In this document: one piece after another, positions 7,121-61,513 of the stretch | Layout: each line of letters opens with the position of its first letter | Position numbering within the stretch: position 1 is the first letter of the stretch | Assembly (NCBI RefSeq): GCF_003859795.1 | Contig: NZ_RQYI01000004.1 | Span: 1 to 64,000 of the forward strand | DNA from: Alloprevotella sp. OH1205_COT-284 | Lineage (GTDB): Bacteria; Bacteroidota; Bacteroidia; Bacteroidales; Bacteroidaceae | Direction: 5' to 3' | DNA: 64,000 bases | Translations under genes and position numbers: made by a program | Notes under the pieces: model-generated | The model's input: only the letters and a program-made list of their open reading frames with translations | Told to the model about the DNA's origin: nothing | The model's database searches: none

Positions 7121-7181
7121 AAAAAGGTAACGAGTAGAAAATTTCAGGTCTGATCCGGAAAATTCTACTCGTTACCTTTTT
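7121..7181. repeat. TAACGAGTAGAA hairpin repeat, copy 1
   Basis: A perfect 19-base-pair inverted repeat: AAAAAGGTAACGAGTAGAA at 7121-7139 pairs with 7163-7181 across a 23-base loop. The A-run on the left and T-run on the right let it act as a terminator for either strand. Related copies lie at 22028-22080 and 57124-57184. Confidence 0.85.
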
Positions 7182-56558: not shown

Positions 56559-56943
56559 CAGGAGGCAGACGGTCAGTTCGTCGCTCGCACCCTTGTGGTG
56601 CGTGAGGAAAGTCCGGGCAACGCAGGGCAATCCGCTTCTTAACCGGAAGTCGTCCGCGAGGGTGAATACGTGCAGAAGAAAACAACCGCCTTTTTGTGCT
56701 TGCGCGAAAGGGTAAGGGTGAGAAGGTGAGGTAAGAGCTCACCGGCCGAACGGTGACGTTCGGGCCGTGTACATCGGATGTTGAAAGTTCATGTAAACCG
56801 GCGCTATCAAGGCGGCCCGCCTGAGTCTTTCAAGACGTGTCGGAGGGTAGAACGATAGAATGTGTCGGCAACGGCGCATCCAGATAAATGACGAACACCT
56901 CCACCGGAGGTACAGAACCCGGCTTATCGACCGTCTGCTCCTG
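56559..56943 (+). ncRNA. rnpB: RNase P RNA, bacterial type A
   Basis: The catalytic RNA that trims tRNA 5' ends. The conserved cores are in order: GAGGAAAGTCCGGGC, AGGTGAGGTAAGAGCTCACC, CAGATAAATGAC and ACAGAACCCGGCTTA. The 5' arm GGAGGCAGACGGTC pairs with GACCGTCTGCTCC at the 3' end (helix P1), which sets the boundaries. Length of about 385 bases is normal. Confidence 0.96.
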
Positions 56944-56975
56944 TTCTTTTGACAATACCAGCTCCACTATAATCG

Positions 56976-57013
56976 CTGCGGAAGGACATTCTCGTCTTTC
57001 CGCAGTTTTTTTT
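56976..57013 (+). terminator. terminator after rnpB
   Basis: An imperfect stem with CTGCGGAA/TTCCGCAG as its perfect 8-base-pair base (56976-56983 with 56998-57005) followed by a run of eight Ts. Confidence 0.85.
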
Positions 57014-57123: not shown

Positions 57124-57184
57124 AAAAAGGTAACGAGTAGAAATTTTTAGCTCTGAGTTAGAATTTTCTACTCGTTACCTTTTT
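57124..57184. repeat. TAACGAGTAGAA hairpin repeat, copy 3
   Basis: A perfect 20-base-pair stem: AAAAAGGTAACGAGTAGAAA at 57124-57143 pairs with 57165-57184. The loop contains TTTAGCTCTGA, shared with the copy at 22028. It lies between rnpB and the Phe/Tyr operon promoter. Confidence 0.85.
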
Positions 57185-57282
57185 CTGTTTATCTCTCATG
57201 CGGATTGGTTTTTCCGTTTTCTCGAAAATCTCCTTTGTAGATACGAATGTTTTGGAGTCTGCAATATTTTTCTGTAATTGTG

Positions 57283-57313
57283 TTGCTTATTTCAATAAAA
57301 AAAACTACTTTTG
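57283..57313 (+). promoter_or_regulatory. promoter of the Phe/Tyr operon
   Basis: TTG at 57283-57285, 20 bases, TACTTTTG at 57306-57313, so transcription should start near 57320. This rules out the open frame start at 57247 as a real start for the enzyme. Confidence 0.7.
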
Positions 57314-57342
57314 TCGCCGAAATCAATGATTCAGAGCTAACA

Positions 57343-57476
57343 ATGACACAAAACAACGTCTTTTACTTCTATTTTACTTCTTTGCCCAACAAGCGAAGCG
57401 GGACGTTGTATGCCGATAACACAGAGGCTTTGACGCAAACTCTGAATCCCGCTCTTGCAAAGCGGGATTTTTTATT
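57343..57476 (+). promoter_or_regulatory. Phe/Tyr leader-peptide attenuator
   Basis: A leader frame starts at ATG 57343 (MTQNNVFYFYF). Its codons 7-11 are TTT TAC TTC TAT TTT. A terminator stem ATCCCGCT/AGCGGGAT (57446-57453 with 57461-57468) is followed by a T-run to 57476. An alternative pairing is possible: AGCGGGA at 57397-57403 with TCCCGCT at 57447-57453, which breaks the terminator. A ribosome stalled on the Phe/Tyr codons would leave 57397-57403 free, so shortage of either amino acid would allow read-through. The leader frame has no stop codon and continues in frame into the enzyme. Confidence 0.8.
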
Positions 57477-57495
57477 ATTAGAAAACGACACAAAC

Positions 57496-58326
57496 ATGAA
57501 AGTAGCCATTCAAGGTATAAAAGGTTCGTTTCACGACATCGCCGCTCACCAATATTTCAAAGACGAAGATTTGGACTTGGTGTGTTGCAACACGTTTGAA
57601 GATCTTTTTCAAACCATAAAAGAAGACGACACCTGTGTCGGGGTCATGGCCATTGAAAACACCATTGCCGGAAGCCTGCTCCATAACTACGAATTGCTGC
57701 GAGCAAGCGGAACGACTATCGTCGGAGAACACAAACTTCACATCGAACATTCCATTATGTGTTTGCCCGAAGAGAAACTATCCGACCTCAAAGAGGTCAA
57801 TTCGCACCCTGTCGCGTTGATGCAATGTCGCAACTATTTGGCACGCCACCCCCAACTGAAAATTGTGGAAAAAGAAGACACCGCAGGATCGGCGGAACTG
57901 ATCAGCCGCGAAAAGCTCAAAGGGCATGCGGCCATTTGTCACGCCGACGCTGCCCCACTCTACGGCCTAAAAGTGTTGGAACAAGCAATCGAAGACAACA
58001 AGCACAATTTCACTCGCTTCCTCGTGGTGGCAGACAGTTGGAATGCCGACAGACTGCGAGAACCCTATCAGACAGACAAAGCAAGTTTGGTTTTCACCCT
58101 GCCTCATGAAGAAGGCTCTCTTTCGCAGATATTGAGCATTTTGAGCTTCTACAAAATCAACCTCACCAAAATCCAGTCGCTCCCCATTATCGGCAGAGAA
58201 TGGCAATACTTATTCTATGTCGATGTGACCTATAACGACTATCACCGCTATCGGCAAAGCATCGACGCCGTGCGGCCTCTCACAAAAGAACTTCGGATCT
58301 TGGGAGAATACAAAGCCATCATATAA
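57496..58326 (+). CDS. pheA: prephenate dehydratase
   Basis: A 276-residue enzyme that turns prephenate into phenylpyruvate, the committed step to phenylalanine. The catalytic domain begins MKVAIQGIKGSFHD and has the AIENTIAGSLL segment and NFTRFLVV (the conserved TRF motif). An ACT domain follows from about residue 200 (GSLSQILSILSFYKINLTKI). The usual Phe-binding ESRP appears here as QSLP. I use the ATG at 57496; the same frame is open upstream through the attenuator leader, so a 51-residue longer form cannot be excluded. First of four genes. Confidence 0.92.
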   Translation: MKVAIQGIKGSFHDIAAHQYFKDEDLDLVCCNTFEDLFQTIKEDDTCVGVMAIENTIAGSLLHNYELLRASGTTIVGEHKLHIEHSIMCLPEEKLSDLKEVNSHPVALMQCRNYLARHPQLKIVEKEDTAGSAELISREKLKGHAAICHADAAPLYGLKVLEQAIEDNKHNFTRFLVVADSWNADRLREPYQTDKASLVFTLPHEEGSLSQILSILSFYKINLTKIQSLPIIGREWQYLFYVDVTYNDYHRYRQSIDAVRPLTKELRILGEYKAII

Positions 58327-58336
58327 ACCACACCTC

Positions 58337-59548
58337 ATGAACGCCCCCAACATTCTGCCCGCTCATCGCATCTCGCAAGTGCAAGAATACTATTTCTCAC
58401 GCAAACTGAAAGAAGTGGCTCTGATGAATGCTGCCGGAAAAGACGTCATCAATCTCGGCGTCGGCAGTCCGGATCTTCCTCCTTCGCCTCAAACGATAGA
58501 AACTTTATGCCAAGTCGCACGTCGAAGCGACGCCCACGGCTATCAGCCCACAAGCGGAACGGAAGAGCTTAGGGAAGCCATGGCACGCTTCTATCGGAAA
58601 TGGTTTGACGTTACAATCGATCCCCGACAAGAGATTTTGCCGCTGATAGGCTCCAAAGAGGGCATCCTTCACACCACATTGGCTTTCGTCAATCCCGGCG
58701 AAAAGGTTTTGGTGCCCAATCCGGGCTACCCCACCTATACTTCGCTGTCGCGTTTGCTCGGCGCGGAAGTCACACACTACGATCTCGTGCCCGAAAACGA
58801 CTGGCAACCCGACTTCGACAAACTCGAAGCCATGGACACCGAGGGCGTAAAATTGATTTGGGTGAACTATCCGAATATGCCGACGGGAGCACCGGCATTG
58901 CAATCCACTTTTGAGCGTTTGGTTGATTTTGCTCGAAAACGCAACCTCGTCGTCGTAAACGACAATCCCTACTCTTTCATTCTCGGAAAGGAATACAAAT
59001 CCATCCTCCAAATTCCCGGAGCAAAAGAGTGTTGCATCGAGTTCAACTCCATGTCGAAGAGCCACAACATGCCGGGGTGGCGAGTAGGGATGCTTGCCAC
59101 AAACGCCCGATTCGTACAATGGATCTTGCAGGTAAAGTCAAACATAGATTCCGGCACATTTCGTGGCATTCAGCTGGCCGCGGCCGCAGCCATTGACAAC
59201 GACGAAGCGTGGCATCGGGAATACAACTACGAAACCTACTTGAAACGAAGAAAAATTGCCGAAGAAATCATGCGGAAACTCAACTGCACTTTCGACGAAC
59301 GGCAAATAGGCATGTTTCTCTGGGGGCGCATACCCGATCGTTTCGACCACTGCGAAAGCCTCACGGAAAAGGTCTTACACGAGGCTCGCGTGTTTATCAC
59401 ACCGGGATTTATCTTTGGCAGCAATGGAAATCGCTATGTCCGCATTTCGCTCTGCGCGAAAGAAGAAAAACTGCAAGAATCGCTAAGGAGAATAGACGAA
59501 ATGATCGCATCAAACAGCACATCGCCCTCTCCCTCACAACAGCAATAA
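58337..59548 (+). CDS. class I/II aminotransferase
   Basis: A 403-residue pyridoxal-phosphate aminotransferase. The cofactor Lys is in SMSKSHNMPGWRVG, and NPGYPTY and NYPNMPTGA are typical of the aspartate/aromatic aminotransferase fold. Placed between prephenate dehydratase and DAHP synthase, it most likely transaminates phenylpyruvate and 4-hydroxyphenylpyruvate. It starts 10 bases after pheA. Confidence 0.9.
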   Translation: MNAPNILPAHRISQVQEYYFSRKLKEVALMNAAGKDVINLGVGSPDLPPSPQTIETLCQVARRSDAHGYQPTSGTEELREAMARFYRKWFDVTIDPRQEILPLIGSKEGILHTTLAFVNPGEKVLVPNPGYPTYTSLSRLLGAEVTHYDLVPENDWQPDFDKLEAMDTEGVKLIWVNYPNMPTGAPALQSTFERLVDFARKRNLVVVNDNPYSFILGKEYKSILQIPGAKECCIEFNSMSKSHNMPGWRVGMLATNARFVQWILQVKSNIDSGTFRGIQLAAAAAIDNDEAWHREYNYETYLKRRKIAEEIMRKLNCTFDERQIGMFLWGRIPDRFDHCESLTEKVLHEARVFITPGFIFGSNGNRYVRISLCAKEEKLQESLRRIDEMIASNSTSPSPSQQQ

Positions 59549-59575: not shown

Positions 59576-60643
59576 ATGGAACTGGACTTACTTCCCCTCA
59601 ATCTTCCCAACATAACCGCCCAACGTCCCCTTGTCATTGCCGGCCCTTGTTCGGCCGAAACCGAAGAGCAAGTCATGGAAACAGCCACCAAACTGTTGGC
59701 CAAAGGCATAAAAGTCTTTCGCGCCGGCATTTGGAAACCCCGCACCAAACCGGGAGGCTTTGAAGGAATCGGCGAACAGGGTTTGCCTTGGATGCAGCGT
59801 GTCAAACAAGAATTGGGCATGCTGACCGCCACCGAAGTGGCGACGCCTGCACACATTGAAGCGGCCTTAAAATATGACATCGACATTTTGTGGATCGGGG
59901 CACGCACTGTCGTCAATCCTTTTGCCATGCAGGAAATTGCCGATACGCTCAAAGGAAAAGACACTCCCATTTTGGTGAAAAACCCCGTAAATCCCGACAT
60001 CGAACTTTGGATCGGCGGTTTGCAACGACTCAATGACGCCGGCATCAAACGCTTGGCTGTCATCCACCGTGGTTTTTCGAGCTATGACAGGCGCATTTAT
60101 CGCAACCTCCCAATGTGGCATATTCCCATCGAACTGCGTCGCAGAATACCCCACCTTCCCATCTTCGGCGATCCTTCACACATCGGAGGCCGTCGGGAGT
60201 TGATCGCTCCTCTCTGTCAGCAGGCCATGGATTTGGGTTTCGAGGGACTCATCGTAGAAAGCCACTGCAATCCCGACCAAGCATGGAGCGACGCATCTCA
60301 ACAAATCACGCCCGACGTGCTTGACTTCATTCTCGAAAAACTGACGATCCGAAAAAGTGCCGAAATCACAGAAAGTCTGGACTCGCTGAGAAAACAAATT
60401 GACGAATGCGACAACGCCCTGCTCGAACTTTTGGCCAAACGCATGCGCATCAGTCGGGAGATCGGCACATATAAAAAAGAGCACAACATGACCATTGTGC
60501 AAACTGCACGCTATTCTGAAATCTTGGACAAACGAGGAGCACAAGGCAGTCTGTGCGGAATGAATCCGAACTTCATACGCGATATGTTTGAGCTGATTCA
60601 TGAAGAGAGTATCGCCCAACAATCCGAAATCATGAACAAATAA
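59576..60643 (+). CDS. DAHP synthase fused to chorismate mutase
   Basis: A 355-residue bifunctional enzyme. Residues 1 to about 260 are a type I-beta DAHP synthase (VIAGPCSAETEEQ, KPRTKPGGFEGIGEQG, DPSHIGGRR), which joins phosphoenolpyruvate and erythrose 4-phosphate to open the shikimate pathway. Residues from about 265 are an AroQ chorismate mutase (LDSLRKQIDECDNALLELLA), converting chorismate to prephenate. In this order the mutase is usually a sensor for feedback control. It is 27 bases after the aminotransferase gene. Confidence 0.93.
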   Translation: MELDLLPLNLPNITAQRPLVIAGPCSAETEEQVMETATKLLAKGIKVFRAGIWKPRTKPGGFEGIGEQGLPWMQRVKQELGMLTATEVATPAHIEAALKYDIDILWIGARTVVNPFAMQEIADTLKGKDTPILVKNPVNPDIELWIGGLQRLNDAGIKRLAVIHRGFSSYDRRIYRNLPMWHIPIELRRRIPHLPIFGDPSHIGGRRELIAPLCQQAMDLGFEGLIVESHCNPDQAWSDASQQITPDVLDFILEKLTIRKSAEITESLDSLRKQIDECDNALLELLAKRMRISREIGTYKKEHNMTIVQTARYSEILDKRGAQGSLCGMNPNFIRDMFELIHEESIAQQSEIMNK

Positions 60644-60730: not shown

Positions 60731-61513
60731 ATGAAAGTACTCATTTTGGGAGCGGGAAAAATGGGGTCGTTTTTTGCCGACTTGCTCAGTTTTGAACACG
60801 AAACGGCCGTCTACGACATCAACCCTCAACGACTCCGGTTTATGTACAACACGCTGCGATTAACCACCCTCGAAGAAATCGCAGAGTTTTCTCCCGAGCT
60901 GGTCATCAATGCCGTCACGCTCAAATATACGATTGACAGTTTTCGGCAAATCCTTCCTTTTCTGCCGAAAGACTGTATTCTCTCAGACATAGCTTCGGTA
61001 AAAACCGATCTGCAATCTTTCTACGAGAGTTGCGGCTTCCGATACGTTTCCACCCACCCTATGTTTGGCCCGACATTTGCCAACTTGGGAAGTCTGTCGC
61101 ACGAGAACGCCATTATCATTAAGGAGGGCGACTACATGGGCAGGCTCTTCTTTCGAGATGCCTACAACCGCTTGGGGCTAAACGTTTTTGAATATAGTTT
61201 TGAAGAGCACGACAAGACCGTAGCCTACTCCCTGTCCATTCCTTTCGTTTCGACGTTCGTTTTTTCGGCCGTGATGAAGCACCAAGATGCACCGGGAACC
61301 ACCTTTAAGCGACATCTGAAAATCGCGCGCGGAGTGCTCAACGAAGACACCTGCCTTTTGCGCGAGATTTTGTTCAACCCGCGAACATCCGGACAAGTCT
61401 CGCAAATACGCGACGAACTGAAAACGCTGCTCGACATCATTGAAAAAAAAGACGAAGAAGGATTGGATGCCTATCTGTTGAAAATACGTAAAAACATCGC
61501 CCAACAGAGCTAA
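60731..61513 (+). CDS. tyrA: prephenate dehydrogenase
   Basis: A 260-residue NAD(P)-dependent dehydrogenase that oxidises prephenate to 4-hydroxyphenylpyruvate for tyrosine. The Rossmann motif GAGKMGSFFADLL is at the N-terminus, and THPMFGPTFANL is the family signature. There is no chorismate mutase domain, because that lies in the previous gene. I start at 60731 (MKVLILGAGKMG). The gene completes the Phe/Tyr branch and may share the leader-controlled transcript. Confidence 0.9.
   Translation: MKVLILGAGKMGSFFADLLSFEHETAVYDINPQRLRFMYNTLRLTTLEEIAEFSPELVINAVTLKYTIDSFRQILPFLPKDCILSDIASVKTDLQSFYESCGFRYVSTHPMFGPTFANLGSLSHENAIIIKEGDYMGRLFFRDAYNRLGLNVFEYSFEEHDKTVAYSLSIPFVSTFVFSAVMKHQDAPGTTFKRHLKIARGVLNEDTCLLREILFNPRTSGQVSQIRDELKTLLDIIEKKDEEGLDAYLLKIRKNIAQQS

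Follow-up and report, generated by a model that had tools for sequence, protein, structure and literature searches.

Does the DNA upstream of pheA, the first gene of a compact phenylalanine and tyrosine operon, encode a leader-peptide attenuator, and is the copy found here a complete one? The window (the whole 64,000-nucleotide stretch that was analyzed) contains at this locus a promoter, a short leader reading frame, a set of alternative RNA helices and four structural genes (Table 1). The earlier note on this DNA had proposed attenuation on the basis of a promoter, five consecutive Phe/Tyr codons in a leader frame, a terminator hairpin with a T-run, an upstream arm able to pair with the left arm of that terminator, and genes of the Phe/Tyr branch. 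We recovered each of these elements: the TTGC and TACTTTTG boxes lie where the promoter had been placed, the codons are found at 57361–57375, the hairpin was also identified by independent detection, the pairing of the upstream arm was reproduced by folding, and Pfam/NCBIfam domain matches gave the gene identities as named. Gene content, i.e. synthesis of both Phe and Tyr, counts in favor of a Phe/Tyr attenuator. Two features absent from that account emerged as well: the leader frame lacks a stop codon, and an additional arm (arm 1) forms a 1:2 hairpin at the codon run.

Table 1. Features of the pheA leader and the operon behind it, in window coordinates.
Feature	Position	Strand	Details
Bacteroidetes-type promoter	57283–57313	+	-33 TTGC 57283–57286; 19 nt spacer; -7 TACTTTTG 57306–57313, TAnnTTTG type
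Leader ORF, ATG 57343 through Phe/Tyr codon run	57343–57375	+	
Arm 1	57353–57362	+	Partner 57400–57409, protector hairpin 1:2; from the minimum-energy fold of 57320–57480
Relatives' frame for leader peptide end, FYFFAQQAKRDVVCR	57372–57419	+	Stop TAA 57417–57419; intact, out of register with ATG 57343
Arm 2	57397–57409	+	AGCGGGA 57397–57403 with arm 3 (antiterminator); 57400–57409 with arm 1
Intrinsic terminator	57445–57473	+	Arm 3 57445–57453; loop 57454–57460; arm 4 57461–57469; T-run to 57473
pheA, prephenate dehydratase, first operon gene	57496–58326	+	Pfam PF00800, E 2.3e-55
Class I/II aminotransferase	58337–59548	+	Pfam PF00155; best NCBIfam match LL-diaminopimelate aminotransferases, below cut-offs
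DAHP synthase fused to chorismate mutase	59576–60643	+	Pfam PF00793 and PF01817
tyrA, prephenate dehydrogenase	60731–61513	+	Pfam PF02153; PRK08655 family, E 6e-18

The codon run reads TTT TAC TTC TAT TTT, and taken alone it is unremarkable: the 64 kb window contains 1 match where 0.46 are expected, and at least one match occurred in 38 of 100 shuffles. These counts rule out the run as significant by itself, and the significance of the element derives instead from conservation and covariation in relatives. Within the leader, AGCGGGA of arm 2 is complementary to TCCCGCT, contained in arm 3 of the terminator, which precedes pheA. The predicted fold of 57320–57480 corresponds to the 1:2 plus 3:4 state and is more stable than its own shuffles (z -3.0), and the predicted fold of 57376–57460, from which arm 4 is left out, corresponds to the 2:3 state. 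A separate five-codon ORF (ATG ATT CAG AGC TAA, 57326–57340, + strand) stops 2 bases short of the leader ATG.

We compared the locus with regions upstream of pheA homologues from 41 relatives, from 295 genomes of the order (100 upstream stretches taken) and from 80 named genome contigs representing Alloprevotella, Prevotella, Bacteroides and uncultured relatives. Parsing of 186 upstream regions gave 132 non-redundant Bacteroidales sequences with leader and terminator. A leader ATG and a Phe/Tyr run are present in all 131 leaders other than that of the window, with 6–10 aromatic residues per stretch of ten. Phe and Tyr codons occur together in 98% of the 132 leaders (means of 5.0 and 3.9, respectively), which strongly supports, for the family, the suggestion that one leader senses both amino acids. 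Arm 2 starts a median of 11 nt past the last aromatic codon (10th–90th percentile, 8–15 nt), and most leaders have their stop inside arm 2 or shortly after it. This spacing and this stop position are the geometry that a ribosome would need, whether it stalls at the aromatic codons or rests at the stop. Of 129 leaders, 111 have a TAnnTTTG box in the 90 nt before their ATG, against 7.6 expected from shuffles.

Past the aromatic run, it is the RNA and not the peptide that is conserved, as judged by the reading frame of arm 2 relative to the codon run, which is spread evenly over the three frames (45/43/43). Accordingly, the same RNA stretch encodes KRD in one genus, EAG in Prevotella and SRT in one further leader (L011). 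A peptide function for the C-terminal part of the leader (AERD/AKRD), considered as a candidate, was rejected on these grounds, and the peptide beyond the run is best seen as a by-product of the RNA arm. Some genus members have a pheA without any leader (L010/L049, L020); the leader is thus dispensable, which we count against the attenuator reading.

The pairing of arm 2 with arm 3 was evaluated without an alignment in all 132 leaders. The mean pairing energy of arm 2 with the arm 3 of the same leader is -15.2 kcal/mol, as compared with -7.3 kcal/mol for shuffled spacers and -8.9 kcal/mol when arms are swapped in from other species, and only 7% of the swaps are as good as the own partner. The arms change in step between lineages: GAGCGGGA goes with TCCCGCTC, CGAGGCTT with AAGCCTCG, and AGACAGGA with TCCTGTC. 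In a covariation alignment of 53 sequences, 94.6% of the cells in the antiterminator 2:3 are paired, with 14 double changes against 1.6 in shuffles, and 95.8% of those in the terminator 3:4, with 29 against 7.4; when the partner is slid, pairing drops to 37–52%. On the 132 sequences the corresponding values are 88.6% (2:3) and 94.8% (3:4), as opposed to 29–59% when slid. Since arm 3 is shared by both covarying helices, antiterminator and terminator are mutually exclusive. The 1:2 helix, whose 5' arm sits at the codon run and which is predicted in the window fold, exceeds shuffled and swapped controls in 129 leaders, although the effect is modest (-12.5 kcal/mol for own arms against -11.0 kcal/mol for swapped ones, with 38% of the swaps as good). 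The earlier note had set conservation in Bacteroidales relatives as the point on which its idea could fall; with the codon run and both helices conserved, the idea survived that comparison.

We propose that the element is, very probably, a classical ribosome-mediated transcription attenuator of the Phe/Tyr operon that senses charged tRNA-Phe and tRNA-Tyr. From the position of the promoter, RNA polymerase would be expected to start near 57320, and a ribosome would begin the short leader at 57343. A shortage of charged tRNA-Phe or tRNA-Tyr would stall the ribosome within the Phe/Tyr run, where it masks arm 1 but not arm 2; the run being mixed, shortage of either amino acid should suffice. Free arm 2 would then pair with arm 3, permitting readthrough into pheA and the three genes behind it. 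With both amino acids plentiful, the ribosome would reach a stop at or just past arm 2 and cover this arm, so that 3:4 forms and the transcript is terminated near 57473. Without a loaded ribosome, 1:2 and 3:4 would form, and transcription would end as well.

A terminator and an antiterminator alone would also be compatible with control that does not involve the ribosome, i.e. a Tyr/Phe T-box, a riboswitch or a protein-bound terminator accompanied by an incidental small ORF. We find this hardly credible, since strong conservation is confined to the codon run, the spacing from the run to arm 2, and both alternative helices, and since the codons are kept while the peptide frame at arm 2 varies. 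Moreover, no Rfam family reaches threshold in the leader; in the whole window, only an RNase P RNA and a tRNA do so.

Ribosome-mediated attenuation leaves the question of whether the window copy is complete. From ATG 57343 the leader frame is stopless and continuous with pheA: the ATG lies in the same frame as the pheA start at 57496, this frame (frame 0) is open for 40 codons up to pheA, and the ORF as a whole is open over 57247–58326, with a stop only at the end of pheA (58326). In the relatives the leader peptide has the form M...FYFYF(A/T)..(A/V)(K/E)RDVVC followed by a stop, and the register that holds FYFFAQQAKRDVVCR in the window lacks a start codon downstream of a stop at 57327. A stop at or near arm 2 is absent from the window copy and present in 130 of the 131 other leaders. 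The remaining one, L115 (genome G088), is the only other leader among the 132 with a stop past the terminator start (MKNLFVRFYGFYFFYFMHQCVKVGGNRTCLKSSMICYPTF), and is a second case without an early stop. Provided that the sequence is right, the window leader lost its stop by a one-base register change within the codon run and hence forms one reading frame with pheA. By descent the locus belongs to the classical attenuators, and the present copy is damaged or misread. The attenuator claim of the earlier note therefore stands for the family, with its conserved codon run and its two conserved, covarying alternative helices, and falls short for the window, where the frame that is open into pheA does not make a complete working leader.

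That the break is an assembly or sequencing error, and that the living strain has an ordinary leader ending near arm 2 and working like those of its relatives, we regard as about equally apt to be right or wrong. The change amounts to one base within a T-run, the window leader is the only one of the 132 that is open into pheA, and the source assembly is a fragmented draft of 93 contigs. Furthermore, the relatives' frame is intact downstream, including a stop at the usual distance, and an old mutation would have let it drift. On the other hand, all four operon genes behind the leader are full length, which suggests that the local error rate is not high. A second assembly of the window species was not found among the genome contigs or viral contigs searched.

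A real and recent frameshift, which would turn this strain into a naturally occurring attenuator mutant with higher basal expression and a PheA extended at its N terminus, is also plausible, although we lean slightly against it. It takes the sequence as given, with frame 0 open to pheA, and is in line with the L115 leader, which likewise lacks an early stop, and with the complete loss of the leader in some relatives. However, by our own estimate an open frame of such length has a probability of ~0.15 of arising by chance and hence gives no sign of selection, and no second genome bears the frameshift out. If the frameshift is real, an unhindered ribosome would trail the polymerase through arms 2–4 and hinder the terminator; attenuation would be weaker, the operon partly derepressed, and some PheA N-terminally extended. 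As the stop near arm 2 is missing, the usual step in amino-acid excess, in which a ribosome at the stop covers arm 2, would be missing or altered.

Alternatively, a programmed -1 shift on U UUU (57372–57375) could carry ribosomes from the ATG frame into that of the relatives, and so to its stop. tRNA-Phe on UUU could fully re-pair one base back on the four U, after which translation would continue through the conserved end to the stop. This is nevertheless very unlikely, given that such a shift is seen in no relative, that a stimulator is not evident and that a run of four U is a weak slip site.

To define the range of the element, we built a covariance model of the leader and ran it over 41 genomes. 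At E ≤ 0.001 no genome has more than one match, and in the 22 genus members with E < 1e-7 the match lies directly upstream of pheA. Beyond the order, 23 of the 29 genomes sampled have a short Phe/Tyr-rich ORF ahead of pheA; by this measure, which takes in the short ORF alone, the loci divide into 21 of 23 in the same class and 2 of 6 in other classes of the phylum. More speculatively, the element may be an ancient attenuator found in most of Bacteroidia, with arm 2 free across the three frames, of which the window copy would be a leader-PheA fusion where the ribosome itself overrides the terminator; we put this forward tentatively and with considerable doubt.

Before hisG and leuA in relatives, we observed short leader ORFs that are rich in His (MKLYTSHHGHHHFLQ) or in Leu/Ile (MNKTIIILSIILLA, MNALTTNILLLGIIILLRKSVGSEFSV, MNFCTINLLAIIICS) and are followed by terminator-like hairpins (L221 near 1310, L225 near 1344, L226 near 1307 and L227 near 1322, in gene orientation). 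From these leaders, attenuation seems to be a general mechanism in these bacteria. In the source genome itself (95.6% complete), hisG was not found, leuA gave only a weak 28-bit match, and no leader combining a His run with this GCGGGA arm was found; His and Leu auxotrophy, with Phe/Tyr synthesis kept, is possible.

Two further elements lie upstream of the leader. The RNase P RNA (class A, RF00010, 230.7 bits; 56565–56942, + strand) is located directly upstream and has its own terminator-like hairpin at 56975–57006. Between the two, 57124–57184 contains a perfect 20-base inverted repeat, AAAAAGGTAACGAGTAGAAA and its reverse complement around a short centre. The genome holds at least three paired copies of this repeat and several single arms (window 7121–7181 and contig C38 among the places), with 13 matches against 0 for a reversed control; it could be a small dispersed palindromic element or a bidirectional terminator.

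The proposed mechanism is a known one. The pheL and trpL leaders of enteric bacteria work by leader-peptide attenuation, and the trp, his, leu and thr leaders of Proteobacteria (RF00513, RF00514, RF00512 and RF00506) share the same working principle. The enterobacterial pheA leader (pheL attenuator, RF01859) is likewise located upstream of pheA and combines 1:2/2:3/3:4 hairpins and an intrinsic terminator with a peptide in which the regulated amino acid is abundant. The Bacteroidales leader differs from it in that (i) Phe and Tyr codons are mixed, in an operon that makes both amino acids, (ii) the promoter is of the Bacteroidetes type and (iii) arm 2 often overlaps the last codons of the leader itself. 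As judged by its covariance model, the window leader is not a member of RF01859 (18.0 bits, E 1.1; gathering threshold 55). The trp, his, leu and thr leaders concern other amino acids and have other sequences, and RF00513 and RF00512 score far below threshold in the window.

Leader-peptide attenuators of Actinobacteria have been described by comparative genomics (PMC1262725), from the same kind of evidence and with the same mechanism as here. A survey of attenuation across bacteria (Lopatovskaya et al. 2010, known here through its citation in PMC4833913) may have predicted some Bacteroidetes pheA leaders earlier. The transcriptome map of B. thetaiotaomicron reports long 5' UTRs whose small ORFs recall the leader peptides of attenuators, and names no Phe/Tyr leader or mechanism in the portion of the text available (PMC7366714). 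A full-text search of the literature collection used found no description of a Bacteroidales phe leader, with an earlier prediction in a survey being possible. The Bacteroidales Phe/Tyr leader is thus a case of a known mechanism for which there is no Rfam match at threshold and for which that collection yielded no paper.

The finding adds a covariance-supported RNA family that is missing from Rfam, and an example of a leader RNA arm that is conserved independently of the overlying reading frame. For these bacteria, the leader would explain how the Phe/Tyr operon is controlled. Classical attenuation requires ribosomes close behind RNA polymerase; the retention of such a leader across a class of dominant gut bacteria is evidence for functional transcription-translation coupling there, at least in leaders, and provides a ready natural reporter for testing that coupling.
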